In this document: positions 36,737-52,893 of the stretch, in pieces
Position numbering within the stretch: position 1 is the stretch's first letter
Layout of the letters: each line of letters starts with the position of its first letter
Source of the DNA: Allomuricauda ruestringensis DSM 13258
GTDB taxonomy: Bacteria > Bacteroidota > Bacteroidia > Flavobacteriales > Flavobacteriaceae
Assembly (NCBI RefSeq): GCF_000224085.1
Contig: NC_015945.1
Coordinates: 186,001-250,000, forward strand
DNA: 64,000 nucleotides
Direction of reading: 5' to 3'
The notes under the pieces: model-generated
What the model saw: the letters and a program-made list of their open reading frames with translations, nothing else
What the model was told of the DNA's origin: nothing
Database searches by the model: none
Made by a program: the position numbers and the translations under genes

Positions 36737-37445
36737 GGGTCTTTTTATTGATGTCCAATAGTTACGGAAATTTCATTATGTGCTTGACCTCAATTGTCCA
36801 TACCTAAAATTACAACAATCTGTGTACTGGTGTGCACAACCTTATTGCACACCAAAAATTTGGATTCAAATGATATCAGATGGATTCATAAAAAACAAAA
36901 AACACTGATAATCATACAATTAACAGTGCTTTGTTTCTGCCAAAATGGTGGTTCGTCGGAATGACTGAATCACCGACAAAATCTTATCTATTTGAAAATC
37001 ATTGTTTTACAACTGTAATCTTGAAGGTATTCCCGTTAAGAACACGGAAAGCAAAAAACAACTTTTGAACACAATTTTCATGTGCTTAACTATCTATAAA
37101 AATAGTAATAATATTCAAGCTATTTGTTTCCTATTTAAAAAGCTAAATTATTAATCCTTAAATCAACCTATAACTCTATGCCTTGCAAAACTTTTGTTGA
37201 AAAGTGAAACTGACAAATAATATATTAAAGACTATTATAAGTTAATAGTCATATGACTGATTGAATCATATGCAAATAAATAACACGAGCTTCAATATCC
37301 CATTTGATGACTAATAATGTTTATATTAAATATATTCGAAAATATAAAAGCAAACTATTCTGGATGATGGTATACAAAACTTGGGCATAGCTAACCAATT
37401 TAACAGAATAACCAAGAAAGTTCCGTGTATATACAATTACAATAA
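36737..37445. other. 709-bp AT-rich spacer at the left island border
   Basis: No gene that I can support. It contains the left copy of the att-like direct repeat (36863-36977). To the right of that point base composition becomes markedly AT-rich, consistent with imported DNA. The promoter of the 37446 gene must lie here, but several A/T-rich candidates are equally good. Confidence 0.6.
36863..36977. repeat. left att-like direct repeat (tRNA-Pro 3'-end relic plus hairpin)
   Basis: This stretch aligns along its length with 52737-52847 in the same orientation. Shared parts are ATTCAAAYGATAT, a hairpin (AAAACACTG ... TTAACAGTG), a spacer of about 26 bp, and a copy of the tRNA-Pro 3' end (TCGGAATGACTGAATC against TCGGGATGACTGGATTC in the gene). 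The tRNA-like part is decayed and shorter. I read it as the far attachment site of the island. Confidence 0.65.
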
Positions 37446-39158
37446 ATGACACCAAGCGAACTCTTAAAGAAAAAGATTGACGAAGAATCCGAGATTCTTA
37501 AAAACAGTTTCAGAGGTCCAAGTTATTGGGCAATTCAGAATATAGTTCGAAGGATTGACTTTATATTCCCATTGTTTCATAGAAGAGATGGTTGGACTAA
37601 ACAACAGGTAGACGAATTCCGAGAGTTTTATAATTATGGATGGGCACCAATTCTCAAACAGTATTATGACAAAATCGACATAAGTGTCTATGAACCATTC
37701 CCTTTGATGAATGATGAAATGATTTCTTGGACTGATTCCAATATTTCATTTAGCGGAAGAATCGAATTTTGTAAACAACTCCTGTCTTACGAGAAAGCGG
37801 GACTCATATCAATAAGTAACCCTAGAGAAAATGTTTTCACATTTTCATACCTACATGAAGTTACAGGAATTGAGCAGTATGATCAAATGAGTTTTGATTT
37901 TTTCAAAGAACAAATTGTCGAGCGAATAATAGAACGAAAGAAACAAGACAAACCATTTGAAGAAGAAAAAATAAAATCCGAATTAAGGAGTATAATTAGG
38001 AATCCCGACGGGAAAATGATCAGTTATGAAACGACTCCTGAAATTGATGAATACTACAATCAACTAGGGCATTATCATGTTTTAAGATTACAAGGTTATG
38101 ATGATTTTGATACTAAGGACAAATTTGGTGGGATAGAATATTGGAAATATGTAGACATGATAGAGTTAATAGCAGGTACCGCTTTAATGCATGTGGAAGC
38201 CTGTTTGGAACTTGTTAAATCAAACCCAAAGGTTGACTTAATGAATATTTTGTCTTACACCTATTTTAAGGACAAGACAATTAAACAGTTTTCGAAATAC
38301 CTTGAAGTAAGTGAAAATGAAATTGAACAAATCTTTTCTTGTCTAACTTTATCGAAGGAAAATTTCGATTATTATTTAGAATATCCTGCTACTCCACCCC
38401 CTATGTATTTTCAAGTTTCAGAAAATCTTACAATAAGATCTGTAGCAGGTTGTCTCAGCAATCCATTTTCGTTGTTAAATAGAGAACTAAAAAGAAAATA
38501 CAGAAGTGATTACGACAAGGCGGTTAACCAAAGGGAAGATAGGTTTAGGAAAGAACTATTTATGTTCTTTCCTGATAAGCGAATTATAAAAATACCCCGA
38601 GGAGTAAATATATCTTCGAATGGCATAAGAACCGATATTGACGCTGTAATATTTGATAGTAAAACAGGTACACTGGGGATATTCCAATTAAAGTGGCAAG
38701 ATCCATTTGCCAAGGATATGACCGAAAGATATAGTAGAATGAGCAACTTATTTCCTAAAGCTAATGAGTGGGTTGAAAAAATGAAAAAATGGGTTACAAG
38801 TAACACAAGTAAGACTATTATCAATTCACTTCAAATTAACAAGTACTTAAAAGAAAAGATTGACATAAAAGATATTTGTTGCTTTGTCATTTCAAGAAAT
38901 CAAATGAATTTTACTGGAATGGAGATTATAGATAAGACTGTAGCTTGGAGTTCTTGGTATCAATTGATAGAGTCTCAAGCAAGGTTTAAGACCGAGTTTG
39001 ACGACCCAATTAGAGAGATGTTCGTCAAAATAAAGTCATTTAGTCCTGAGAGAAGATTAAACATGGAGGAACTACCTCAAGCCGAAGACTTAGAGGTGCA
39101 AATTGGAAAAATAAAAGTAATTTATAATAGAAAAAAAGCAGATAACAAAGTGTCCTAA
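37446..39158 (+). CDS. large protein with C-terminal PD-(D/E)XK-like nuclease motif
   Basis: 570 residues, no signal peptide. Nothing recognisable in the N-terminal 380 residues, which are largely helical with many charged residues. Around residues 393-420 a nuclease-like core can be read: an acidic pair in GIRTDIDAVIFD and, after a turn, LGIFQLKWQDP (the D-x(n)-Q/E-x-K pattern). This suggests a PD-(D/E)XK fold. It is the first cargo gene inside the left border. A defence role is inference from fold and context. Confidence 0.65.
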   Translation: MTPSELLKKKIDEESEILKNSFRGPSYWAIQNIVRRIDFIFPLFHRRDGWTKQQVDEFREFYNYGWAPILKQYYDKIDISVYEPFPLMNDEMISWTDSNISFSGRIEFCKQLLSYEKAGLISISNPRENVFTFSYLHEVTGIEQYDQMSFDFFKEQIVERIIERKKQDKPFEEEKIKSELRSIIRNPDGKMISYETTPEIDEYYNQLGHYHVLRLQGYDDFDTKDKFGGIEYWKYVDMIELIAGTALMHVEACLELVKSNPKVDLMNILSYTYFKDKTIKQFSKYLEVSENEIEQIFSCLTLSKENFDYYLEYPATPPPMYFQVSENLTIRSVAGCLSNPFSLLNRELKRKYRSDYDKAVNQREDRFRKELFMFFPDKRIIKIPRGVNISSNGIRTDIDAVIFDSKTGTLGIFQLKWQDPFAKDMTERYSRMSNLFPKANEWVEKMKKWVTSNTSKTIINSLQINKYLKEKIDIKDICCFVISRNQMNFTGMEIIDKTVAWSSWYQLIESQARFKTEFDDPIREMFVKIKSFSPERRLNMEELPQAEDLEVQIGKIKVIYNRKKADNKVS

Positions 39159-39234
39159 AGTGAGTGGCTCCTTGCAGGTGCTTACGACACCGTACACGAA
39201 AAGTTAGGGTAAATTCAGGTGAAGTTGGAATTAC

Positions 39235-40122
39235 ATGGCATCAGAAAAACTATTTAACATACTTGAGGGGTTTAATTTTGACAACCTTGAAAATCCTGAA
39301 TTTCAAGAAGATTCTGTCAGAGAGGAACTCATAATCCCAATAATCCGTGGACTCGGATATTCGGCAGATAAGCCCAATCAAATAATAAGAAGCAGAAAGT
39401 TAATCCACCCTTTTGTTTCGATTGGTTCAAAACGTAAAAACATATATATAATTCCAGACTATTTGTTTGAAGTGAATGGAAAAGCTGCGTGGATACTTGA
39501 CGCAAAATCACCAAATGAAGAGATTATTAAATCAAAACACGTTGAACAAGCATACTCATACGCAATTCATAGTGAAGTGAGAGTTAGTTTTTTTGCGCTT
39601 TGTAACGGAAAAGAGTTTGTTCTTTATGATATACAAAAACCTGAACCTTTACTTCATTTCCCGTTAATTAGTATTCCCCGATTTTGGGAACCACTTAAAA
39701 GCATACTTGCTCCGGATAATGTATTTACGGTAGATTACAATAAACTCGCAAAAGACTTGGGTTTACATCTTAAAAGGCTGGGTTTTGAAAGCTTTCATAG
39801 TTTAATATTTCCTGACATTCCAATAATGGAAATCACACAATTAGACCCAGATCAGTATTCTATTTCAGGAGGTTTGATTGTGAACGAAGAAACCTATATG
39901 GTGACTTTTGACTTTGACGAAAACGTATTTAAACAACTTAAGGGAATAATTCCCGACAATGCATTTAAGATGTTAAGTATAAGACGAAATGACAAAAGAT
40001 TAGTTGCTAGATTTAGCGACAGAAATTTTCTTGTAACAATTGATTGTAAAATTGGCCAAAAGTTAGAAGAAAATGAAAGAGAAATCTTTTTACCAATGAG
40101 TGTTAATAAATTTATAAAATAA
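39235..40122 (+). CDS. stand-alone HsdR N-terminal-like (type I restriction) protein
   Basis: 295 residues. The N-terminal part matches HSDR_N: EFQEDSVREELIIPIIRGLGY, then PDYLFEVNGKAAWILDAKSP, holding the catalytic D-x(n)-D/E-x-K (here PDY ... DAK), and EQAYSYAIHSEVRV with the QxxxY motif. The helicase part of HsdR is absent and the C-terminal ~130 residues are not recognised. Small proteins of this type occur in defence islands and as orphans. It is 76 bp after the previous cargo gene. Confidence 0.8.
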   Translation: MASEKLFNILEGFNFDNLENPEFQEDSVREELIIPIIRGLGYSADKPNQIIRSRKLIHPFVSIGSKRKNIYIIPDYLFEVNGKAAWILDAKSPNEEIIKSKHVEQAYSYAIHSEVRVSFFALCNGKEFVLYDIQKPEPLLHFPLISIPRFWEPLKSILAPDNVFTVDYNKLAKDLGLHLKRLGFESFHSLIFPDIPIMEITQLDPDQYSISGGLIVNEETYMVTFDFDENVFKQLKGIIPDNAFKMLSIRRNDKRLVARFSDRNFLVTIDCKIGQKLEENEREIFLPMSVNKFIK

Positions 40123-40357
40123 AAGATAGCAGCGAACACCCCCATGGACGATAAGGGCTTGTAGCTCTATCCAGCTCACGAAAACTCTCGCTAATTTCCT
40201 TTTCAGTTTGTATTTCCTAAATTAGACACTTAAACAAGTAATATAACATTTACCAACACGTTGGAGCGCATTCAGATGAAGTTGACCTTTTTACTTCGGC
40301 TTAAGAAATCCACACGAGAATACTAACACAAAGTAAATAATATTCCAAATAAGTTAA

Positions 40358-40365
40358 TATATTTG
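40358..40365 (+). promoter_or_regulatory. -7 box of the XRE/methyltransferase operon
   Basis: TATATTTG is an exact match to the TAnnTTTG consensus. It is 17 bp before the XRE start codon (TTG at 40383), so the transcript would have a very short leader or none. No TTG is visible at the expected -33 distance. Confidence 0.5.
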
Positions 40366-40382
40366 CGTAAAACACAAAGAAA

Positions 40383-40601
40383 TTGGCGAAAGTGGAAATC
40401 AACAGGATAAAAGTTGCTCTAGCTGAGACAAGAAGAAAGAATAAGTGGTTGGCTGAACAAATCGGAAAAGATGAATCTACTATTTCACAATGGTGTACTA
40501 ATGCTAGACAGCCATCACTAGAAAACCTTTTAAAGATTGCCAATGCACTTGACATAGATATCAGAGACTTATTATGCTCTACAAAAAATACTAATGACTA
40601 G
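40383..40601 (+). CDS. XRE-family regulator (controller-like)
   Basis: 72 residues from a TTG start. The helix-turn-helix is complete: VALAETRRKNKWLAEQIGKD followed by ESTISQWCTNARQPSLENLL. The gene overlaps the start of the C5 methyltransferase gene by up to 8 bp. This is the arrangement of controller proteins that delay restriction after entry into a new host. It probably controls the whole four-gene operon. Confidence 0.85.
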   Translation: MAKVEINRIKVALAETRRKNKWLAEQIGKDESTISQWCTNARQPSLENLLKIANALDIDIRDLLCSTKNTND

Positions 40602-41829
40602 AATGAGTTCGAAAAAAACATATATAGATTTATTTGCAGGATGTGGCGGACTCTCACTTGGATTATTCAATTCTGGCCATTGGAAAGGTAAATTCGCTGT
40701 TGAAAAAAGTCCAGATGCTTTTAAAACTTTGGAACACAATTTAATTGAAAACAATTCTCATTTTGAATGGCCTAATTGGTTACCTCAATCTAACCTAGAC
40801 ATTAATGAAGTCATCAAGGAATATCCTGAAGAACTGAAATCTCTACGTGGAACTGTTGATATGGTTGCTGGTGGACCACCTTGCCAAGGATTTTCAACTG
40901 CAGGAAGAAGAATTGAGAATGACACTAGAAACAGACTGATAGAATCTTACATTAAATTCATTCGGTTAGTTCAACCTAAAGTTATATTTTTTGAAAACGT
41001 AAAAGGCTTTACTCAAAAATTTGACAAGAATAAAGTTAAAGGCAGAGTCTATTCTGAGTATGTACAAAATGCTTTAAAAAGAGGTTCAAAAAGACTTAAT
41101 GCAACTGGCTATAATGTTTATGGAAAGCTCATTGATTTTTCTGAATTTGGTGTGCCACAAAAAAGAACTCGATTCATTTTAGTTGGGATTAGGAAAGATG
41201 TTTCTGACACCATAAATCCAAAGCTTTTTTTCGAACAGATAAAAAAGAATAAAAAGGAATTTCTTGCTAATAAAGGAATTGGCTTAACAAATAGTTTAGA
41301 AGATGCTATTTCTGACCTACTTAGGATTGAAGAGACTATTTCACCAGACACAAAATCTTTTAAAACTGGACTTTACAATATGCCTAATTCTAACTATCAA
41401 AAGTTGCTAAAAGGTAATATTAAAAACATAATTCCAGATAGTCATCGTTTTGCAAAACACAATTCTAAGACTGTCGAGAAGTTTCAATTCATTCTAGATT
41501 TTGCTAAAAAGAATAAAACACTTTCTAACGAAATAAAGGAAAAATTTAATCTTAAAAAAAGAACAATTATTCCGTTGTCAGGGGAATTGCCTACACCGAC
41601 AATTACCACATTACCAGATGACTACATTCATTACTGTGAACCAAGAATTTTTACCGTTCGTGAGTATGCTAGAATTCAATCTTTTAATGATTGGTATGAG
41701 TTCAAAGGAAAATATACAACTGGTGGAAAAAGAAGAACTCAAGAAGTTCCAAGATATTCACAAATAGGAAATGCAATTCCACCTTTATTTGGTGAACAAG
41801 CTGGAATCACACTAAATAACTTGATTTAA
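40594..41829 (+). CDS. C5 cytosine-specific DNA methyltransferase
   Basis: 411 residues (ATG at 40594, alternative ATG at 40603). Conserved motifs in order: I DLFAGCGGLSLG (~12-23), IV GGPPCQGFSTAGRR with the catalytic Cys at ~97, VI FFENVKGF, VIII QKRTRFILVG, IX/X TVREYARIQSF and RYSQIGNAIPP. All residues needed for activity are present. The target-recognition region (~250-330) does not tell the site. There is no recognisable restriction endonuclease partner next to it; instead GHKL and REC-HEPN genes follow. Confidence 0.93.
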   Translation: MTRMSSKKTYIDLFAGCGGLSLGLFNSGHWKGKFAVEKSPDAFKTLEHNLIENNSHFEWPNWLPQSNLDINEVIKEYPEELKSLRGTVDMVAGGPPCQGFSTAGRRIENDTRNRLIESYIKFIRLVQPKVIFFENVKGFTQKFDKNKVKGRVYSEYVQNALKRGSKRLNATGYNVYGKLIDFSEFGVPQKRTRFILVGIRKDVSDTINPKLFFEQIKKNKKEFLANKGIGLTNSLEDAISDLLRIEETISPDTKSFKTGLYNMPNSNYQKLLKGNIKNIIPDSHRFAKHNSKTVEKFQFILDFAKKNKTLSNEIKEKFNLKKRTIIPLSGELPTPTITTLPDDYIHYCEPRIFTVREYARIQSFNDWYEFKGKYTTGGKRRTQEVPRYSQIGNAIPPLFGEQAGITLNNLI

Positions 41830-41831
41830 TT

Positions 41832-44201
41832 ATGCAGAAACCACTACAATTTAAAATAAGTTCTGCATTAAAAAACATAATTGGTCGAGACTTAATTACA
41901 GATGATTTTATTGCAGTTTTTGAGCTAGTTAAAAACTCATATGATGCCCACGCAACAAGAGTTGAAGTGATCTTCGAAAATATTTATTCTGATAATGGAA
42001 AAATAATTATCAAGGATAATGGCAAAGGCATGAGTTATCAAGATTTGCTTGACAAGTGGCTATTTGTGGCGCGTTCTTCAAAAAAAGAGGGAGATGAGGA
42101 AGAGAGTTATAAAAACTATAGAGATAAAATCAAAGTAAAAAGAGCTTATGCTGGTGCAAAAGGCATTGGTAGATTTTCATGTGACAGACTAGGGAGTGAG
42201 CTTTATCTAGAAACGTTAAAGGATGAGGAAAATGCAAAAATAGAAGCTTTAGTTACAGATTGGAACAAGTTCGAGGAAGACAGTAATAATGAATTTGTAA
42301 ACGTAAGTGTACTTCACGAAACATTAAAAAAAAGCTCATATAATCTAACACAAGGAACTGTTCTTGAAATCTCAAATTTGCACAGTGAATGGAATAGAGA
42401 TAAATTCCAATCACTAAAAGATTCATTAGCACGTTTAATAAATCCGTCTACTATAAAAGATGATGATTCGTTTAAGATTTTCTTGTCCATAGAAGAAGAA
42501 CAAGGAAATGACAGTAAACAAATTAAAAAAAACAAAGACCTTGTAGAAAAAGGGAAACTTGATGAATCTGAAGTTGATTATTTTAACATCGTAAACGGAG
42601 AAATTAGAAATCCGATTTTCGAGACCTTACAATTAAAGACCAGTTATATTGAGTCAGATATTAAAAAGGGTTTTATAACCACTACTCTTTATGAAGGGGG
42701 AGAATTGGTCTACAAAATTGAGGAAGAAAACCCATATTCTGACTTCAGTGATATTCATTATTCAATATACTTCTTAAACCAATCAGCAAAATCCACTTTC
42801 ACAAGAAGAATGGGTGTCCAACCTGTTGAGTATGGTCACATTTTCGTTTACAAAAATGGCCTTAGAGTGTATCCTTATGGAGAACGTGGCGAAGACCCAT
42901 TTAAAATGGATGTAAGGAAAAGCCAAGGTTACGCCAGAAACCTTGGAACTCGTGAAGTAATTGGCTATATCTCTATACAAGGAACTAACGATAATTTGAA
43001 AGAAACTTCTAGTAGAGGTGATGGCTTTATTAAAACCTCTGCCTACTTCAACTTAGAGAAACAATTTTACGAAACTTTAAAAAAACTAGAAAAGTATACG
43101 ATTGACATTACCGATTGGGGAAATTTTTTGTCAGATGACGATTATATCAATATCAACGAATCATTTATAAAAAATGAAGGGACAAAAAATGAAAGAATTT
43201 TTGATGTAAATGAAAATCTAAGTCAACTCATCTCGTCCATTTCAAACTCAAAGTCAGTCACGAAATTTGAGGTTTCACCTAACATTCTTCGCATTTTAGA
43301 TTCGAAAAGTGAAAAATCTGCTCAAGGAACTTTAAAGAAATTATCGGAGAAAATTGATTCTGATGATTTTGATAAAGAAGAGGTAAAAAAAACCATTAAG
43401 AATGTTGAAAAGAAACTTTCTGACCTAAAATCGAGAAAGGAAGAAGCAGAAGAGGAAGCTCTTCAAAAGTATATAGAAAATGAAGAGTTAAAAACTGAAC
43501 TGGACAGAGAAATTGCAGAAAAACTTTTTGACAAATCAGTTGAGGGTAGAGAGAAAAAAGATTTGTTGGCATTACAGCATCAAATTATACATACCGCTGG
43601 AAATATCACCTGGAGTTTAGATTCATTAGTTGATTCAATAAACAGCGATAAGCCAAAAGAGGAATTAATTGAGGACATCAAGGATATAAGTTTAGAAGTT
43701 CAGAGAATTGTAAGTGCTTCACGTTTTGTGACAATGGCTGGATTCAATACTCAGGCAGAGAAAATAACTAAAGATTTGGTTTCTTTTATTAATGATTATG
43801 TAATCAATATTTATCAACCAGCAGATTCTTTTATTCATAGTAAAAGACCAATTAAAATTTCAATTAAAGAGACGAACTTGAAAAAAGTAATGAAGTTTCG
43901 TCCCTTTGAAATTACTGTAGTGCTTGATAATTTATTTTCTAATAGTAGGAAAGCGAAATCAACTGAAATATTATTAGGATGGACCAAGAACAAATCAAAT
44001 TTAGTTCTTTCATTTAAAGACAATGGAAACGGTATTCCGAAAGATATAGTCGATAAAATATTTGAGTTTAGATATAGCAACACTGATGGCTCTGGTATTG
44101 GTCTTTATCACGTTGAAAGCATCTTAGAAAAATATAATTCAGAAATAGAATACGTTCCAAGCAAAAAAGGAACGGAATTCCATATAATATTTCCACTATG
44201 A
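41832..44201 (+). CDS. protein with two GHKL ATPase domains (MORC/Hsp90-like plus histidine-kinase-like)
   Basis: 789 residues. The N-terminal GHKL ATPase has AVFELVKNSYDA (N-box), IIIKDNGKGMS (G1) and AYAGAKGIGRFSCDRLG (G2), in the style of MORC/Hsp90-like ATPases. A middle domain and a Glu/Lys coiled coil (~510-580) follow. Next is a HisKA-like helix with QHQIIHTAGNITW. A second GHKL domain closes the protein: VVLDNLFSNSRKAKS (N-box), SFKDNGNGIPKDIVDKIFEF (G1) and GSGIGLYHVESIL (G2). The next gene encodes a receiver and overlaps by 4 bp, so a phosphotransfer pair is likely. Confidence 0.85.
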   Translation: MQKPLQFKISSALKNIIGRDLITDDFIAVFELVKNSYDAHATRVEVIFENIYSDNGKIIIKDNGKGMSYQDLLDKWLFVARSSKKEGDEEESYKNYRDKIKVKRAYAGAKGIGRFSCDRLGSELYLETLKDEENAKIEALVTDWNKFEEDSNNEFVNVSVLHETLKKSSYNLTQGTVLEISNLHSEWNRDKFQSLKDSLARLINPSTIKDDDSFKIFLSIEEEQGNDSKQIKKNKDLVEKGKLDESEVDYFNIVNGEIRNPIFETLQLKTSYIESDIKKGFITTTLYEGGELVYKIEEENPYSDFSDIHYSIYFLNQSAKSTFTRRMGVQPVEYGHIFVYKNGLRVYPYGERGEDPFKMDVRKSQGYARNLGTREVIGYISIQGTNDNLKETSSRGDGFIKTSAYFNLEKQFYETLKKLEKYTIDITDWGNFLSDDDYININESFIKNEGTKNERIFDVNENLSQLISSISNSKSVTKFEVSPNILRILDSKSEKSAQGTLKKLSEKIDSDDFDKEEVKKTIKNVEKKLSDLKSRKEEAEEEALQKYIENEELKTELDREIAEKLFDKSVEGREKKDLLALQHQIIHTAGNITWSLDSLVDSINSDKPKEELIEDIKDISLEVQRIVSASRFVTMAGFNTQAEKITKDLVSFINDYVINIYQPADSFIHSKRPIKISIKETNLKKVMKFRPFEITVVLDNLFSNSRKAKSTEILLGWTKNKSNLVLSFKDNGNGIPKDIVDKIFEFRYSNTDGSGIGLYHVESILEKYNSEIEYVPSKKGTEFHIIFPL

Positions 44202-45109
44202 AATTAGATTACAAAATTATATGGGTAGAGGATAAAATAGATACCAAACCTTTCCTTGCTCTCAGACAAACAATAAATGAACATTTAGTAAATGAATTTT
44301 TCAATGTTCAATTTGAAACAGCTGAAGACTTTGATGAATTCAAAGAAAAATATGAAGCAAGTGAGACATTTGACCTAATAATAACTGACCTGAATTTAAA
44401 TGAAAGTCACGGTTCACAGGTTATTGATTTTGTGCGTGATGTCAAACATATTATGACCGAAATATTTTTTTATTCTGCGAATAGTGAACTTTCTGCAACA
44501 AACTTAGTCAATAGTAGCAGAATTACATTTCATCAGATGGATGAGGCTAGTGCTTACAGAGAACTTGGAGCATCTATTATGGACTTGATTAATCTTACTA
44601 TTTCTAAGTTTCAAAATATCGTTACTATGCGTGGTATGATAATGCAAGAAACTAGTTCACTAGATTTAAAAATGGACAATATTGTGAAAGCACAATTAAA
44701 AAACCCTAAACTTTCAGATGAAATCAAGCCAGTTATTGAAAATATATTTGATAATATTTTTGCCAATGCTGAAGAAAAGTACAACAAGGCTAAGGCAAGA
44801 AAATCCAAGGACATATTTAGAGATAATATTTTATTCAATTCTTCTCAAAAAATATTCGCCTTAGGAGAAATTTTAAAGATTCTTAAGAAAGAAAATTTTT
44901 CGGAAGATTACTCGAAGGAAATAATCCTAATACGAAACCAATTTGCGCACGCTGAATTAATGAAAAACGAAGATGGTAAAGAATACTTTAAAGTAAAAGG
45001 TGAAGAAGTCTACTTTGATGAAAACCTGTGTAGAGAAATCAGAAAAAATATTATAAAGCACGTGAACAATATCTCTGGTCTTGAAAGTAAATTGGATTCC
45101 AACGCATAA
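44198..45109 (+). CDS. receiver domain fused to a HEPN-like domain
   Basis: 303 residues. The N-terminal ~125 residues form a receiver: acidic pair in IIWVEDK (11-12), probable phospho-acceptor Asp64 in LIITDLNLNES and FYSANS as the switch Ser region. A linker of ~40 residues follows. The C-terminal ~170 residues are all-helical and contain EIILIRNQFAHAEL, an R-x4-H motif (246-251) typical of HEPN ribonuclease domains, preceded by a helix of the FALGEILKIL type. It is coupled to the GHKL gene. Phosphorylation-controlled RNase or binding activity is inferred, not shown. Confidence 0.75.
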   Translation: MKLDYKIIWVEDKIDTKPFLALRQTINEHLVNEFFNVQFETAEDFDEFKEKYEASETFDLIITDLNLNESHGSQVIDFVRDVKHIMTEIFFYSANSELSATNLVNSSRITFHQMDEASAYRELGASIMDLINLTISKFQNIVTMRGMIMQETSSLDLKMDNIVKAQLKNPKLSDEIKPVIENIFDNIFANAEEKYNKAKARKSKDIFRDNILFNSSQKIFALGEILKILKKENFSEDYSKEIILIRNQFAHAELMKNEDGKEYFKVKGEEVYFDENLCREIRKNIIKHVNNISGLESKLDSNA

Positions 45110-45266: not shown

Positions 45267-45362
45267 AATAATAAGAGAGCCCACGCGTTGTACATGCAGT
45301 CTGCATTTAGTGAGTGTCTTGACCTCACCTTACGGGTGTACAAGCACCCTCGACCATTCTAT
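45267..45362 (-). ncRNA. candidate guide RNA of the dead Cas12f-like protein
   Basis: Directly behind the Cas12f-like stop codon the reverse strand can fold into three consecutive hairpins: GGGTG-6 nt-CACCC (45334-45349), GTGAG-9 nt-CTCAC (45310-45328) and ATGCA-3 nt-TGCAT (45294-45306). After the last stem comes GTACAAC (45293-45287), similar to the scaffold ends of TnpB/Cas12f RNAs. If that is the scaffold end, the guide would begin at 45286 as GCGTGGGCTCTCTTATTATT. Boundaries are uncertain; they follow from structure and position only. Confidence 0.55.
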
Positions 45363-46460
45363 TCAATCAATAATCAATTCAAGACCAGCTTTCTTAGCTT
45401 TGTATTCTATTTTGGTCATCAAATCACAATAGCTCCAATTTCTTAATACAAATCCCTCTTCTTTAGCAATCTCAGTTTTTTCCTCCTGATTCAAAAGTAT
45501 GAGGGTTCCTGCTCTATGTTTAACACAAAAATCAATCAACCTCCGGCTATAGACATGCAGACGATGATGGACATATTTACGTTCCGTTTGACCAAGTCTG
45601 TCAACTGCCTTTAGTTTTCTTTTGATGCCTTTACCCGATTTGGAATAGGTTGCCCCGATCTTTGCCCGTCTGTGTGCCGACTGGATTGCCAGTCTTCTGT
45701 ATAAAAATTCTTCCTTTGTGCCAATGGTAAGCCTTGCTTTGCCAACCTTTACAACAATGGGATATTCAAGGGAAAGTGAAGCCTCTGCAATAATCTCAGG
45801 TCTTAGGTCGTGGTTTTCTTTTTCAATTTCGAATACTGCCAACAAGAAAATCTTGCCCTCTTTTAGTTTTATGTGTGACGTGCACAGCTTAGTCTTGCCC
45901 TCCACTACCCGCTCCAACAATGTCCGTTTATCCGTAAAATCCTTTCCCAAATAGGTTTTAAAGGGAATCCGAAATAAACGAAAGCAGAAAGCCTTTTTTT
46001 CTTCGTTGTAGTGTAATCCACTCATACCCTCCAAGTCAAAAGGGAAGGCCATATCTCTTCTGAAATTTTTCAAGGAGCGTTCACCATTCCAATACTCTGG
46101 TCTGTTTTTCTTGAAAGATGAAATCAAGGCCTGGTTCAAATTGGACAATATGTTTGTGGGGATTTCGCCTTTAAACCGGTCTGATACCACTCGATAGGTG
46201 GTGTTGATTCTGGAACGATTAAGGATTCCTTGTTCATCTTTCTTTTCATCCGCCAGTTTATATTTTTTCCCCTCTGAGAGATAAAAGAATTCCCTTATCA
46301 TTTCCTGAACATAAAGATGGGTTACTATTAGGTTGGCTGCCCTAAAGCACCTATTCTGCCACTGGTACAGTTTATCCAAAGCCTCTTTTTTCTCTTCTTT
46401 AGTAGAAAGGTCAATCAGAAGTTGGATCTTTCGAGTGAGTTTTAGTGTTGTCTTTTCCAT
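45363..46460 (-). CDS. nuclease-dead TnpB/Cas12f-like RNA-guided protein
   Basis: 365 residues. The N-terminal ~220 residues fit the WED/REC half of compact Cas12f/TnpB proteins. From ~222 the RuvC fold can be traced. The RuvC-I strand reads ASLSLEYPIVV, where the catalytic Asp is replaced by Ser (~228). The bridge-type helix follows (RRLAIQSAHRRAKIG), then VHHRLHVYSRRLIDFCVKHRAG. RuvC-II reads LILLNQEEK, with Asn (~324) instead of Glu. The protein ends at WSYCDLMTKIEYKAKKAGL-ELIID, just before the zinc finger and RuvC-III Asp. All three catalytic acids are thus missing, yet the rest is intact, which points to a binding role. The sigma gene lies 1 bp upstream. Confidence 0.88.
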   Translation of the reverse strand: MEKTTLKLTRKIQLLIDLSTKEEKKEALDKLYQWQNRCFRAANLIVTHLYVQEMIREFFYLSEGKKYKLADEKKDEQGILNRSRINTTYRVVSDRFKGEIPTNILSNLNQALISSFKKNRPEYWNGERSLKNFRRDMAFPFDLEGMSGLHYNEEKKAFCFRLFRIPFKTYLGKDFTDKRTLLERVVEGKTKLCTSHIKLKEGKIFLLAVFEIEKENHDLRPEIIAEASLSLEYPIVVKVGKARLTIGTKEEFLYRRLAIQSAHRRAKIGATYSKSGKGIKRKLKAVDRLGQTERKYVHHRLHVYSRRLIDFCVKHRAGTLILLNQEEKTEIAKEEGFVLRNWSYCDLMTKIEYKAKKAGLELIID

Positions 46461-46461
46461 G

Positions 46462-47256
46462 TTAGGCTGATTGCAATTGATGTTTTGCTTCCATTAGCCT
46501 ATAGGCTATCATGAATTCCTGATGCACCTCCTTTTGAGAGATGTTAAGTTCATCCGCTATTTCGGAAAAGGAATATCTTAGTTCACAACGCATTTTAAGC
46601 ACCTTTGTCTGCTCTTCTGTCATCTCGCCAGTAAACTTTATCTCATCTGTATTGTTATCACCGAAATCGAGCTTATTTCCTTGATGAAGGATGGTTTTAA
46701 TATCTTCAATAGCTTCCTTGATCTCTCTACAGGTTTCATTGATGCCTTTTCCCATTGCTTTGGAAATGGCCTTGTACTGAAAACCATATTTCAAACACAG
46801 GTTGATTACGTGTCTTTTGCTGTCATCCAATAACGGCAGGACGCTTTTGATACTTTCGAACTTCTCTTGTTCCCCTTCCTGTAGTTTAACATTGTTATTG
46901 TCTTCAGCAGGGTCATACCCGACCATATAGTCTTGGTAATTCTCAAAACTCTCCAACGAGTGGACTTTCCTGAAAAACCTGTTCTTAGGGCGTGTATAGT
47001 ATGAAATACACTCCCTTTTCATGACAAACCGCAAGAAAAAATAAATATGTTTCGGTGATTCCAATGTATCTCTATGTACCCACAACTTCAAGAATACATC
47101 TTGTACCAATGTTTCCACAACAAAACCATCATCTAGAAAGCTCTTTCCCAACCAGAAAATCTGTCTATTGTATTTGGTATGGATTTCCGTAAAAGAGTTG
47201 GAACAACCCTTTTTGAGGCCTTTATAGCATTCTTCTAGGGTATGGTGGTTTTCCAT
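46462..47256 (-). CDS. ECF-like sigma factor with two sigma-4-type domains
   Basis: 264 residues from the ATG at 47256 (a TTG at 47274 is possible). Residues ~5-90 form sigma region 2: a long first helix, [19 protein letters not shown] and [16 protein letters not shown], the usual ECF layout. Residues ~135-190 form a region-4-like HTH ([40 protein letters not shown]). A second, similar HTH follows at ~208-258 ([40 protein letters not shown]). No anti-sigma gene is adjacent. The downstream partner is the dead Cas12f-like gene, 1 bp away. Ordinary ECF factors are ~180-200 residues, so the extra domain may dock the Cas12f-like partner. Confidence 0.85.
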
Positions 47257-47451: not shown

Positions 47452-47841
47452 ATGACGACAGACACAAAAACCAATCATATAGGAAGAAAGATTGCCCGAA
47501 TCAGGGAACTCCGGGGAATGAAGCAAGAAACGCTTGCGGAGGAACTGGGGATAAGCCAACAGAGTGTTTCTTCTTTGGAAAAAAGTGAAACCTTGGAGGA
47601 TAAGAAACTTGAAGAAATCGCAAAAGCATTGGGAGTTACGAAAGAAGGTATCGAGAATTTTTCCGAGGAATCTGTTTTAAATATTATTTCAAATTCTTTT
47701 CATGACCAATCGGCATTAAATGCAATTTTACATCAACCCACTTTTAATCCGATTGATAAAGTAGTTGAGCTGTATGAGCGACTTGTTCAAGCTGAAAAGG
47801 ACAAGGTTTCTTATTTGGAAGAGCTATTGAAGAAAAAATAA
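47452..47841 (+). CDS. XRE-family regulator with coiled tail
   Basis: 129 residues. HTH at the start (HIGRKIARIRELRGMKQETL, AEELGISQQSVSSLEKSETL), then a middle stretch and a C-terminal helix VVELYERLVQAEKDKVSYLEELLKKK that probably mediates dimerisation. Proteins of this type are frequent on flavobacterial mobile elements. It is divergent from the sigma/Cas12f-like operon and may repress it. A -7-like TATCTTTA lies ~10 bp before the ATG. Confidence 0.85.
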   Translation: MTTDTKTNHIGRKIARIRELRGMKQETLAEELGISQQSVSSLEKSETLEDKKLEEIAKALGVTKEGIENFSEESVLNIISNSFHDQSALNAILHQPTFNPIDKVVELYERLVQAEKDKVSYLEELLKKK

Positions 47842-48068
47842 GTGATTCAAAAGGAAATAAGATCTCCTCATTTTTATTTGATATTGAGGTGTTTTATTAT
47901 TCATTGAATTTTAAAAATCCCCCTTATAATTTAATACTTACTTAATTTTCAATTAATTGACACTTTCTTAGGAAAGTATCCACAGTATAAATTTTCTTAA
48001 GATTGGTCCTCAATATGTTGATTCAGTCAGACTTTTGAAGCCATAACTTGATTGAGTTAAAATCAGAA

Positions 48069-49301
48069 ATGAAGCAAGGAACTTGTCATCTATGCGATAA
48101 AAACACAGACCTAGCAAAAAGTCATATAATCCCAAAGTTTGTATTTCGTTGGATGAAAAATACTGGTGGAAAATATTTCCGTTCTCCGTTGAATCCAAAT
48201 AGGAGAATACAAGATGGAGAGAAAAACTATTTGTTCTGTTTTGATTGTGAACAAAAGTTTAGTTCTTATGAAAAATGGTTTGCCAACAATATCTTTTTTC
48301 AGCATTTAAACAACGACCAAAGGTTTCTAAATTATGATGAAAATCTCGGCAACTTCATCATTTCAATTCTATGGAGACGACTTTTGATCAGCAAAATTAA
48401 TGCGGAGAATTACTATGAAGATGTTTTCTACGACTGGAAATCTTATTTAGATAAAAACAAACCTCTTAAGTTTAACGATATCCACATGTTATTCCTTGGA
48501 AATAAATGGGGAAAGCAAGCACAGCCAAATGAATTCGTGCATAGATATTTTAATAGGGCAGTTGACACAAATATAGCCGAAATAGATGGTGAAACATTTG
48601 TTTTTGCAAAATTTGCCAGGTTTCTATTATTCACTAAACTAAAGGGTGAAACCAATAATTTTAGAGGAACTCAAGTTTTATTTAAAAAGAGCCGATTTCC
48701 ATTTGTTCAATACATAGACAATGGAAAATTTTTCCTTTTCTTTCTGGATAGAGCTGAAAAAATATATCAGTTAGCGTTAAGTGAAATTTCTATAAAGGAA
48801 CAAGAAAAAATAGTAACAGAAATTAGCAACAAACCACAAGAGTTTTGGAAATCTGATGCAGGAAAAAGTGTGGCCTTGGATTTAGATAGCAATATTGCAC
48901 CATTTGAAATTGACAATCATATGAAATATTTGTGCGATTGTTGTCTATCCTCTATGGAAGAACCTGATGGCTATTTATTACGAACATTTGAAGTAATACA
49001 GTCAGCTTACTATTGGGGGTTTGCTTTTCAAAGAAACGAACTTGGCTTAGACAAAGATGGATTAGATAGGCGGATTGAATATTTTAAGGAAATATCGTCA
49101 TCACCAACCCCATGGATAATTTGCGATAAGTGTATATCAATGTTTGACATAGATAGAATAGAAAGTAAATCATTTATGAATAGATGGATTTCATTGAAGG
49201 GCAACTTTGAGCCTTCAAAATGTGATGATTTTAGAAATTATGTTGATGATGCAATGATGAAGAGGATATCAGAAATAATTGTGACTGTAAACAAAAACTA
49301 A
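48069..49301 (+). CDS. Cys-rich HNH-like protein, possible defence gene
   Basis: 410 residues from the ATG at 48069 (the frame opens at a TTG 48048). The N-terminus has CHLCDKNTDLAKSHIIPKFV and, ~50 residues on, FCFDCEQKFSSYE: two CxxC knuckles around an SHIIPK motif, reminiscent of HNH nucleases in which the His is part of the metal site. Another CDCC pair is at ~285 and CDKC at ~350. No classical HNH Asn/His pair can be placed with certainty. Alone between the XRE and the mobilization genes; AT-rich. Function unknown. Confidence 0.65.
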   Translation: MKQGTCHLCDKNTDLAKSHIIPKFVFRWMKNTGGKYFRSPLNPNRRIQDGEKNYLFCFDCEQKFSSYEKWFANNIFFQHLNNDQRFLNYDENLGNFIISILWRRLLISKINAENYYEDVFYDWKSYLDKNKPLKFNDIHMLFLGNKWGKQAQPNEFVHRYFNRAVDTNIAEIDGETFVFAKFARFLLFTKLKGETNNFRGTQVLFKKSRFPFVQYIDNGKFFLFFLDRAEKIYQLALSEISIKEQEKIVTEISNKPQEFWKSDAGKSVALDLDSNIAPFEIDNHMKYLCDCCLSSMEEPDGYLLRTFEVIQSAYYWGFAFQRNELGLDKDGLDRRIEYFKEISSSPTPWIICDKCISMFDIDRIESKSFMNRWISLKGNFEPSKCDDFRNYVDDAMMKRISEIIVTVNKN

Positions 49302-49478: not shown

Positions 49479-50501
49479 TCAGTAACCCATATCCTCGCCT
49501 GTACCCCTAGCCTTATCAATACCCTTTCCAAGGGCCTTGATGATCTTGGCTGCAATCTGTACTTTATTGGTCGGTATATTGGGAGCCTTGACACCCATCG
49601 TTTTAAGTAGTTTAAAGGCTATGTCCTTTTCCTTAGTGGGTAGTCCCATGACCTTCGCAAAGAACTTACCCGGTTCTTTAGCATGGGCCTTTCTCCCAAC
49701 ATAGGATTCCACATAGTTCCTCTTGAACCCTGTTGTCCTGTCATAGGTTTTTTCTGCTGCTTGGTAAAAACTGTCCCTATCAAATCCCCTCTTGACCATC
49801 TTTCCATTCAGTTCCACTTCGGATGCCTTGTGCTTGGCCATCGGGGAAAGCGTATAGGTGTTCGTTACATCCCTCCTGCTCACTATGATATGGATATGGG
49901 TCTGTGGCCCCTCTTTCTGCATCCCAGCAGCCACAAGCTGTCCGTTCTGCTTATGAGGTGCCAATCTTTCATGCTCTTTGATCCTTTTTTCAAGCTCTTT
50001 GACATTCCCAATGGATTCGCCCCTTTCCACTTTTCGTATCTCGTTCCTTAGCCTTGCTATTTCCCCTCGGTAGGGCGCATTCTCCTGAACCTGTTTGTCA
50101 AGGCCCCGATAGGTACGTTCATGTTCGATCTTGGCGTAATATTTCAAGTTCTCGGCCTTGACCTCTTGGTTGCGATGGAAACTCTTGGCATAGTCCTCCA
50201 TAAGCTTCCTTGTATATTCCCTGAGCATGTTTGGGTCATTTCCTATGGCCTGCAATTCCTTTTTATTGGGACTGACCACTATGGAATAGAATTTCGGGTC
50301 TTTCTGCCTTAATTTGGCAGTATTGGCATCTATTTCATCGATGACGGTTTGAGGGCTTACGCTGTCGTTTTCTTGGTCAAAGAATTCTTCCCTCTGTTCC
50401 GGTAACCTGTCCTCGTTTTCCTTTTCCAGATAGTCCACATAGTTCCCCACACTGGAATTGTAGGTACTGCCCATTTTCTGTGCCGAGATGGTAAGGTACA
50501 T
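49479..50501 (-). CDS. relaxase of the Bacteroidota mobilization type
   Basis: 340 residues. The central HUH-like motif QTHIHIIVSRRD (~210-221) is the metal-binding relaxase signature of Bacteroidota Mob proteins (DUF5712-like). The N-terminus (MYLTISAQKMGSTYNSSVGNYVDYLEKEN) and long charged coil (~130-190) are also family-typical. It nicks at oriT and covalently pilots the strand. It follows the BfmA/BtgA gene by 5 bp. No coupling protein is encoded on the island. Confidence 0.88.
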   Translation of the reverse strand: MYLTISAQKMGSTYNSSVGNYVDYLEKENEDRLPEQREEFFDQENDSVSPQTVIDEIDANTAKLRQKDPKFYSIVVSPNKKELQAIGNDPNMLREYTRKLMEDYAKSFHRNQEVKAENLKYYAKIEHERTYRGLDKQVQENAPYRGEIARLRNEIRKVERGESIGNVKELEKRIKEHERLAPHKQNGQLVAAGMQKEGPQTHIHIIVSRRDVTNTYTLSPMAKHKASEVELNGKMVKRGFDRDSFYQAAEKTYDRTTGFKRNYVESYVGRKAHAKEPGKFFAKVMGLPTKEKDIAFKLLKTMGVKAPNIPTNKVQIAAKIIKALGKGIDKARGTGEDMGY

Positions 50502-50506
50502 AGCCG

Positions 50507-51091
50507 TTATCTTAAATGGTACTTTAATTTTTCAAACTCCCCGATGTCCATATTAATTTTTAAATAGGGCTTTCCCATCATGGGTTCTATCTTTTCAACG
50601 TTGTGGAGCATTTCATTGCAACGCTTTTTATAGCTTTCAAATTCACGGAGTATTCTCTCATGATCCACTTTAGGAACGGTGTTTCTTGGCTCCAAAAAAT
50701 CCATTCGCTCTTCCTGAATTTGGACAGGTTCCTGTCTCGGTCTCTTCCCATCCTTTACATAGGCCTCGTAAAGAATCAACATCATTTCATAGGTGGGCCG
50801 GATACTGGTCTTTTCCATGTTCTTGATAATGGCGATGATTCTATCGAATTTTTTCATCATCTGACGCTCCAGTTTTTTGATACTGTCAAGAATGATCTTT
50901 GTTCCCTCCCCAAAAGGGTCAAGTTGATTCTCCTTGAAGTATTGTACCATTCCATCCAACACCTCACTATGCGATTTGTTGAACCTTTTGGAGTAATTGC
51001 GAAAGCGTGTGGCCGTTTCCTTCTTTACCGTGATATTGGAATAACCACCTGTCCCTCTCTTTGTTCTGCCGTTTGTTGATTGCTTTTCCAT
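50507..51091 (-). CDS. BfmA/BtgA-family mobilization protein
   Basis: 194 residues. The N-terminal segment NITVKKETATRFRNYSKRFN-KSHSEVLDGMVQYFKEN is the ribbon-helix-helix-like DNA-binding part typical of BfmA/BtgA proteins. A central coiled region is followed by a C-terminal helix (ERILREFESYKKRCNEMLHN). It should bind near oriT and load the relaxase. First gene of the two-gene mob operon. Confidence 0.85.
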   Translation of the reverse strand: MEKQSTNGRTKRGTGGYSNITVKKETATRFRNYSKRFNKSHSEVLDGMVQYFKENQLDPFGEGTKIILDSIKKLERQMMKKFDRIIAIIKNMEKTSIRPTYEMMLILYEAYVKDGKRPRQEPVQIQEERMDFLEPRNTVPKVDHERILREFESYKKRCNEMLHNVEKIEPMMGKPYLKINMDIGEFEKLKYHLR

Positions 51092-51354: not shown

Positions 51355-52593
51355 TCATCCTTCGGCTGATCGGCTAGTCTGCATATGTTCAATTAGATTT
51401 TGCATGTCCTCCCCTATCTTGTGTTCCAATACCCTTGCATAGATCTGGGTAGTGGACAATTTGGTATGGCCGAGCATCTTTGAGACGGTTTCTATCGGGA
51501 CTCCATTGGACAAGGTTACCGTTGTTGCAAAAGTGTGCCTTGCAGTATGGAATGTCACTTTCTTGTAAATCTTACAGGCTTTGCAGATTTCCTTTAAGTA
51601 ATAATTGACCTTTTGATTGCTATAAACAGGCAATAGGACTTTTGCTATTCTCCTTTCGGCTGAATCTTCATATTTCTTGATGATTTCCTTTGCCTGTGGA
51701 AGTAACGGGATTTTAAGTTTTTCGTCCGTCTTTATCCTTTTGGTGAACAGCCATTCATTGCCATCTATCCCTTTAAGTAGGTGGTCTGGGGTCAATACCT
51801 TCACATCGATATAGGATAGGCCAGTATAGCATGAGAAAAGAAACACATCCTTGCATTTCTCAACCCCCTCCTTTGTGAACGTGGTTTCTTCAATCAACCT
51901 CAATTCCCGTTTTGTCAAATATTCCCGTTCGGTTTTCTCAAAACGCAGTTTATAGTTTTCAAAAGGGTCTTTTGTTATCCAATCCAACCGAACGGCCAAC
52001 CTCGACATTTTCTTTAGCCGTTCCATATGTTTCATGGCCCCATTGTTGGTGCATTTGGTTCGTGTAGATGGTCTGTACTTTCTTAGGTACTGTTCAAAGT
52101 CGGATATAAAACGATAATTCAGTTTTTTGAGCTTGATGTCCTCAACCCCATATTCTTCTTTTAAAAATAGGCCCACGCATCTTTCTGTGATGTGGTAATT
52201 CTTTCTGGTTCCCGGACGTAAAGAAGTGTGCATGGTTCCATTATGGTAGGCAATCAATTGTTTTAATGTTTTTCCGCCTTCATCTTCCCCAAAAAACCTT
52301 GCTTTGATAGATAGTGGAGTGATTACTTTTTCTTCTGCCATCATCAATCTATGGGCCTCATGTAGTCCTGTATAAATTTGGTCCAGGTACTTGTTAAGGG
52401 AAATCACATAACTGGAAAAACCCTTGCCCCTTTTACGGTTATTGTCCCATAAATTGGCTTTTATCTCCCGATTTATGCTAAAATCGGTGCGATCACCATC
52501 GATGGTGATCCTACAATAGACAATCCGGTTCTCGGATTGCACCTTGTGCTTTCTAGTAAAGAAATTGATTGTTAAACGATTGTTTTTCTGCAT
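51355..52593 (-). CDS. int: tyrosine recombinase / integrase (IntDOT-like)
   Basis: 412 residues from the ATG at 52593; the frame extends to 52638 but the family starts as MQKNNRLTINFFTRKHK. It has an arm-binding domain (~1-90), a SAM-like core-binding domain (~100-200) and a catalytic domain (~215-400) with HTARHTFATTVTL (H-x-x-R), LGHTKLSTTQIYARV (H and the Tyr nucleophile). The first Arg is replaced by Ser in SCYTGLSYIDVK, exactly the peculiarity known from CTnDOT integrase. It is next to the tRNA-Pro 3' end and surely moves the island. Confidence 0.92.
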   Translation of the reverse strand: MQKNNRLTINFFTRKHKVQSENRIVYCRITIDGDRTDFSINREIKANLWDNNRKRGKGFSSYVISLNKYLDQIYTGLHEAHRLMMAEEKVITPLSIKARFFGEDEGGKTLKQLIAYHNGTMHTSLRPGTRKNYHITERCVGLFLKEEYGVEDIKLKKLNYRFISDFEQYLRKYRPSTRTKCTNNGAMKHMERLKKMSRLAVRLDWITKDPFENYKLRFEKTEREYLTKRELRLIEETTFTKEGVEKCKDVFLFSCYTGLSYIDVKVLTPDHLLKGIDGNEWLFTKRIKTDEKLKIPLLPQAKEIIKKYEDSAERRIAKVLLPVYSNQKVNYYLKEICKACKIYKKVTFHTARHTFATTVTLSNGVPIETVSKMLGHTKLSTTQIYARVLEHKIGEDMQNLIEHMQTSRSAEG

Positions 52594-52736
52594 GTTGTAA
52601 CCTTTTAGAGTGTGAATACTGTGAAAGTCAAAACACAAGAAAAATGGTTCTAAAAGTCATTTAAAGTTACAATAAGAACTGTAAGTGTTTGCTCCCGATG
52701 GGAACACGCTTGATATGATTTTAGATGGTTTTAAAT

Positions 52737-52847
52737 GAATTCAAACGATATGCCTAAAAACACAAAACACTGAAAATCATAAGATTAACAGTGTTTTGAT
52801 TTTACTTGAAAAGGTTAAGTCGGGATGACTGGATTCGAACCAGCGAC
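52737..52847. repeat. right att-like direct repeat including hairpin and tRNA-Pro 3' end
   Basis: Pairs with 36863-36977 in the same orientation. It consists of ATTCAAACGATAT, a hairpin AAAACACTG/CAGTGTTTT (52764-52797) and the 3' end of tRNA-Pro starting at 52820. Because the hairpin is part of both copies, the recombination point could be on either side of it. Confidence 0.65.
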
Positions 52848-52893
52848 CACACGCACCCCATGCGTGTACGCTACCAGACTGCGCCACATCCCG
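52820..52893 (-). tRNA. tRNA-Pro(GGG)
   Basis: 74 bases on the reverse strand. Acceptor stem CGGGATG/CATCCCG with discriminator A; anticodon stem CACGC/GCGTG around the loop ATGGGGT, giving anticodon GGG; T-arm CTGGTTCGAATCCAG. CCA is not encoded. It is an intact gene whose 3' end faces the island. Confidence 0.93.

Follow-up and report, generated by a model that had tools for sequence, protein, structure and literature searches.

The 64,000-nt stretch of the Allomuricauda ruestringensis DSM 13258 genome analyzed here (contig NC_015945.1, positions 186,001 to 250,000; hereafter the window) very probably encodes an RNA-guided transcription module of the dCas12f-sigmaE type, the cargo of a MobB-type mobilizable island integrated at a tRNA; the guide of the module would start transcription of host susCD operons past their attenuator. 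On the minus strand, positions 45271-47256 hold the three parts of the module: the sigma factor gene, the gene for a nuclease-dead Cas12f, and the guide RNA. The analysis offers native candidate targets for RNA-guided transcription, together with a complete genome and an island with defined ends, and would tie a dCas12f-sigmaE regulator to a structured leader RNA (unmatched in Rfam in eight loci) that precedes susCD uptake operons. A sequence-only reading had proposed the system and its mobile carrier; the target of the guide, the structured leader, and the ends of the island go beyond it.

The gene for the ECF-like sigma factor, the sigmaE of the system (46462..47256, minus strand; 264 aa from ATG), is followed by dcas12f (45363..46460, minus strand; 365 aa), and the two are separated by a single base (46461), in keeping with the 1-bp spacing claimed previously. 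The closest solved protein to the sigma factor is 9n9q_C, named 'RpoE' (4.9e-113 across residues 12-262), such that the adjacent, dedicated sigmaE is a relative of the solved partner. A Pfam search placed Sigma70_r2 at residues 27-89 and gave the best placement of Sigma70_r4 at 211-246, the latter beyond the span of TIGR02985 (20-189, with a score under the family cut-off in the NCBIfam search), which is in line with the extra C-terminal HTH that had been read from the letters. In the PDB, the Cas12f-like protein matched 'Nuclease-deactivated Cas12f' (9n9c, chain A; 1e-188, residues 1-364, 629.9 bits), a name shared by entries 9n9c, 9n9m, 9n9o, and 9n9q, with weaker matches to active Cas12f (9nzo, 7e-42), a chain named Transposase (8hr5; 2.6e-20, 76.1 bits), and a chain named TnpB (3e-11, 46.3 bits). 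PADLOC identified it as Cas12f (2.3e-52), its NCBIfam match to TnpB (5e-12) was under the cut-off, and Pfam returned zero families at E up to 1.

The four PDB entries presumably stem from work of 2025 in which dCas12f-sigmaE of Flagellimonas taeanensis reportedly carried out RNA-guided transcription, with a 5'-G as the target-adjacent motif and a start site determined by distance from the R-loop. By sequence, the match found here is to Allomuricauda taeanensis (locus L027), in which both proteins match the 9n9c and 9n9q_C chains at full length, with identical letters in the printed alignments. L027 is one of 59 dCas12f loci (60 with the window) recovered by a genome scan. Given the PDB relatives of both proteins and this letter-for-letter match, the window module is, as judged by sequence, a member of the known dCas12f-sigmaE kind and not a new kind, as the sequence-only reading had proposed; the matches to 9n9c and 9n9q rule out novelty as a system. 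A single dCas12f match, that of the window, was found in the 3.84-Mb single contig, and the module was absent from the plasmid search, which returned one 76-bp match.

The catalytic residues of RuvC have been lost. In the window protein, the RuvC-I Asp is replaced by Ser (residue 228) and the RuvC-II Glu by Asn (residue 324), and the chain ends at residue 365, ahead of the zinc finger and RuvC-III, where active Cas12f (9nzo, 506 aa) runs on past residue 414. Both substitutions and the missing C-terminal elements had been seen in the letters, and together (S228, N324, and the absence of RuvC-III) they rule out an active Cas12f nuclease. Excluding the partial loci L054 and L060, Ser occupies the RuvC-I position in 55 of 58 sequences (window among them), and 47 of 58 have Asn at the RuvC-II position; L051 is the sole sequence of the 58 with Glu there. 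In-frame stops were present in four of 58 homologue frames as extracted (L038, L050, L055, and L056).

Downstream of dcas12f lies a guide RNA with a conserved scaffold (45287..45351, minus strand), which comprises three hairpins plus a pseudoknot that joins the first loop to the bases immediately ahead of the guide, GCGTGGGCTCTCTTAT (45271..45286, minus strand). A loose scaffold pattern was recovered from 57 of the 59 related loci, the exceptions being L044, cut by a contig end, and L035, which has an insertion. Over 31 aligned sequences (of 60), 98.6% of scaffold cells were paired, four pairs changed on both sides, and 11 cells changed on both sides compared with 2.8 in shuffles. Four of the five pseudoknot pairs are invariant and hence uninformative on covariation, and the minimum free energy (MFE) fold of the single RNA is unremarkable (z -1.3) and differs from the three-hairpin fold. 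The three hairpins proposed earlier are kept and covarying, with the pseudoknot added to them. In 22 of 59 loci, the sequence directly after the scaffold is exactly GCGTGGGCTCTCTTAT, and a clade resembling A. taeanensis (L026, L027, L029, L030, and L050) carries the guide TTGTGGGATAYACGCTAAC, within one base at the 3' end. Seven loci (L032, L034, L041, L043, L046, L047, and L053) have two to four scaffold copies each near dcas12f, with mostly different guides. No orphan guide RNAs were detected in the window's own genome at E up to 0.01.

Apart from its copy in the guide, GCGTGGGCTCTCTTAT (16 nt) occurs exactly at C1:2746514 and C1:2850656 (3.84 Mb searched), that is, at two extra sites compared with approximately 0.002 expected by simple arithmetic. 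Both sites are preceded by CACGACCCGG, with a G directly before the target, and each has a susC-susD operon (TonB plug and SusD domains) approximately 500 bp downstream, the first pair being followed by a gene for a Met-zincin protein. Matches with two to three mismatches in the same genome (nine sites) showed no excess over the reversed-pattern control (nine sites at up to three mismatches) and were set aside as targets.

Both own-genome targets, the auto-targets of other loci (sites before their own sigma genes), and the other susC sites fall within one conserved element of approximately 135 nt, a long imperfect hairpin whose covariation is very strong; two copies in one genome (L131 and L132) are exceptions, retaining the 3' half of the leader only. 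Among 35 aligned copies, 264 of 280 cells in the outer stem P1 were paired (shuffled mean 165, maximum 191), and most P1 positions showed more than two pair types or several of them; in P3, 201 of 245 cells were paired (shuffled maximum 173). A plain MAFFT alignment of the leader gave 123 cells changed on both sides vs 39.9. In an alternative, mutually exclusive fold, the guided segment pairs with AUAAGUUGAGUUCCACGCC, which is followed by a T run in most copies; 98.4% of its cells were paired (97.0% in shuffles), with four pairs changed on both sides. The guided segment is, accordingly, the 5' arm of a terminator-like hairpin. Folding of single leader sequences gave either fold, depending on the sequence and its ends.

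Of 64 leader matches, 51 are preceded at a distance of 40-160 bases by the motif TAnnTTTG, which we take to be the Bacteroidota-type -7 box (the Markov control averaged 7.5 and reached 16 at most), a count in which false positives of the leader regex may persist, as they may in the counts of 81 and 79 given below. Three such false positives (L055:3429-3584, L114:2054-2194, and L125:601-742) were excluded from set A3, and the regex misses copies with a short middle, the second leader of the window's own genome among them. An exact -7 box precedes one of the two own-genome leaders and not the other, and for the latter, generic sigma-70 and short-loop terminator scans gave no excess over shuffles. 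Taken together, these features suggest that the leader carries both a housekeeping promoter of its own and an attenuator, the switch arm of which would be the guide target. Rfam (4,227 models, E up to 1) left the leader unmatched in eight loci, so that no known RNA family could be assigned to it there; the sole match in those loci was outside the leader and far under the gathering score.

The second guide type resembles a second site in many of the same leaders. Guides of the TTGTGGGATAYACGCTAAC type resemble a site approximately 195-220 bases past the first element in susC leaders, found with up to four mismatches in 18 of 81 downstream stretches, whereas the reversed guide matched none of the 81; a G stands just before 17 of the 18 matches. 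This second site forms the 5' arm of a further hairpin, present in 30 of 79 leaders, whose variable pair is complementary in 29 of the 30 (shuffled maximum 27). Both own-genome leaders have the second site with three mismatches, a level at which the reversed control gave six own-genome matches, and in the A. taeanensis genome it is four mismatches from the nearer of two guide spellings. In one genome (G010, contig 28), modules with different guide types (L026 and L011) face each other approximately 9 kb apart, and the same genome also holds one leader with both target sites.

A covariance model of the leader detected, in the genome that holds the window, exactly the two copies described above, and it detected one or more in 28 of 29 genomes with dCas12f. 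The leader is commoner than dCas12f among 148 relatives, being present in 50, with dCas12f (E up to 1e-50) in 18; 17 of these 18 have the leader, and 33 genomes have it without such a dCas12f. We classified 95 copies, not counting L131 and L132, which match weakly and in part, or some duplicates of a single place. Of the 95, 58 lie ahead of susC and 12 ahead of sigma-dcas12f, while 25 are elsewhere or unplaceable, several of the latter owing to the short stretch fetched. By eye, some of these 25 stand before genes whose products are small and secreted or lipoprotein-like. Weak but structured leaders (L226-L234), upstream of genes of this sort, were also found in genomes without dCas12f matches (G120, G124, G128, G137, and others); most are without a clear T run, and by eye there is a possible third pairing near the start codon. 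Among susC leaders, at most one mismatch to the guide was found in 22 of 26 from genomes with dCas12f vs 25 of 32 from genomes without (Fisher p 0.74). Such equal conservation is no proof of guide use, and from these comparisons the leader seems to be conserved in its own right.

The guide pattern (at most one mismatch) was present in 24 of 24 genomes with dCas12f loci, guide RNAs included in the count, compared with one match in total for the reversed control in the same genomes; in three genomes with window-type loci (G001, G003, and G007), no such site other than the guide RNAs was found. A G precedes the target in 70 of the 70 leader copies placed upstream of susC (58) or sigma (12), out of 95 examined. 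In 17 of 59 loci, the sigma gene is preceded by a same-strand near-match to the guide (zero to three mismatches); neither the window nor L002-L013 showed one within three mismatches. For 15 of these 17 pairs (L021 and L022 were left out), guides differed from their own auto-targets by 22 mismatches compared with a mean of 28.4 for swapped pairs, and 0.56% of shuffles were as low. Seven loci (L026, L027, L029, L030, L036, L047, and L050) have a leader before sigma that is unmatched by their own guide within three mismatches. In the other Bacteroidota loci with a near-matching sigma-dcas12f leader, positive autoregulation may result. The window module has no leader upstream of sigma; in its place is a divergent Xre-type regulator gene (47452..47841, plus strand; HTH_3 1.7e-12), relatives of which were found in seven of 59 dCas12f loci by tblastn.

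The island spans approximately 36.97-52.82 kb of the window (approximately 15.9 kb) and is bounded by an imperfect 110-bp repeat, with one arm at 52726..52835, at the tRNA, and the far arm at 36861..36971. The local score of the pair is 73, compared with 27 for the next best anywhere in the window and 37 for the reverse strand at the same place, and both arms terminate with a copy of the 3' end of the tRNA. The tRNA, with the island at its 3' end, was identified at 52820..52893 (minus strand; Rfam RF00005, 58.7 bits). No exact repeat of at least 14 bp with the tRNA region was found in the window; the imperfect repeat, missed by blastn within the window and by a repeat search, was detected via the sequence of a relative. 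Next to the tRNA are a tyrosine integrase (51355..52638, minus strand; PF13102, PF00589, and PF17293), a BfmA/BtgA family mobilization protein (50507..51091, minus strand; NF041200, 6.1e-21), and a MobB family relaxase (49479..50501, minus strand; NF041495, 2.2e-109), which, together with the att-like repeats, one of them at a tRNA, support the mobilizable island proposed from the letters. Other cargo (37446..45109, plus strand) comprises a 570-aa protein without a family match and HSDR_N-like, C5 DNA methylase, GHKL ATPase, and receiver-like (under the cut-off) proteins, of which the stretch 39235-45109 resembles a restriction-modification or defense cassette. A 417-aa island protein (48048-49301) had no significant family in Pfam, NCBIfam, or PADLOC. 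An arm similar to that at the tRNA was found in 10 of 59 dCas12f loci and MobB relatives in 14 of 59, L027 among them, many loci being too short to show either. In one relative (G029), a MobB-integrase stretch without dCas12f sits at the same tRNA, and the dCas12f-sigma module hence looks like exchangeable cargo.

In the reading favored here, dCas12f and its guide RNA would open the leader DNA at GCGTGGGCTCTCTTAT, next to the preceding G, and would bring in sigmaE and RNA polymerase. Transcription would then start on the downstream side of the R-loop, either inside the terminator-like hairpin or past it, and susCD would thereby escape the attenuator of its leader; if the start lay approximately 20-65 bases past the G, initiation would fall between the two terminator arms. 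The complex might instead be a repressor, TldR-like or a roadblock of the dCas9 kind, sitting in the transcribed leader and blocking polymerase arriving from the upstream housekeeping promoter. The target does lie downstream of the -7 box, inside the presumed transcribed leader, and nuclease-dead TldR proteins repress (PMC13418256). We nonetheless consider repression unlikely: dCas12f is in an operon with a sigma factor, the solved counterpart of that factor is found together with dCas12f in one entry (9n9q), and repression would have no need of such a partner.

The guide could also act in trans on the leader RNA, mimicking the 5' arm of the terminator-like hairpin, pairing with its 3' arm, and preventing termination. 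Both guide types imitate 5' arms, and the predicted duplexes are consistent with such pairing (-18.7 kcal/mol for the guide and 3' arm vs -4.8 for the reversed guide; -14.2 vs -7.7 for the second guide and the 3' arm of the second hairpin; one typed arm in each case). Cas12f relatives, however, bind double-stranded DNA, and the G that precedes the target in every one of the 70 leaders assigned to susC or sigma also argues against RNA pairing, while the sense orientation is equally required by DNA targeting; we regard this route as very improbable. That the Cas12f-like protein is a decaying remnant, with sigma acting alone at its own promoters, hardly merits belief: the in-frame stops in four of 58 homologue frames would fit decay, but the scaffold is kept in nearly all loci with covarying hairpins, and the guide has two exact targets.

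Guided initiation may be part of a wider arrangement, toward which we are tentative and lean slightly to the doubtful side. Mobile dCas12f-sigmaE islands would plug into an older, wider Bacteroidota family of bistable, covarying attenuator leaders, different guide clades would by convergence target the 5' arms of two distinct hairpins within the same susC leaders, and guided initiation would replace housekeeping transcription held by the terminator, with the guide perhaps also pairing with leader RNA. If true, the deep conservation of the leader, kept for its RNA fold, lets one fixed guide serve many hosts. A conserved structured leader would explain how a short conserved guide stays useful across genera, and leader targeting would explain how a mobile element could take over host nutrient uptake genes.

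Among known systems, TldR is a nuclease-dead, TnpB-derived repressor with a guide RNA, located on a mobile element and aimed at a host gene (PMC13418256), and it thus resembles the window module in its nuclease-dead TnpB/Cas12-type protein, guide RNA, mobile carrier, and host target. It differs in that TldR represses, whereas the best match of the window protein is dCas12f and not TnpB; the scores (629.9 bits for dCas12f compared with 46.3 for the TnpB chain and 76.1 for the Transposase chain) and the adjacent sigma gene rule out TldR as the identity of this module. To our knowledge, TldR acts without a sigma partner. The target leader is similar to riboswitch and attenuator leaders in having two exclusive folds, one of them a GC-rich hairpin with a T run in most copies, and unlike riboswitches it has no known ligand and, in the eight loci searched, no Rfam family. 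Compared with the PDB-solved dCas12f-sigmaE of A. taeanensis (L027), the window dCas12f is 77% identical and the sigma factor 67% (the latter by tblastn), the guide is different, and a divergent Xre gene takes the place of a leader upstream of sigma; the gene order, both proteins, the lost RuvC residues, the downstream guide RNA, the G before the target, and the MobB-type island are, however, shared by the two.
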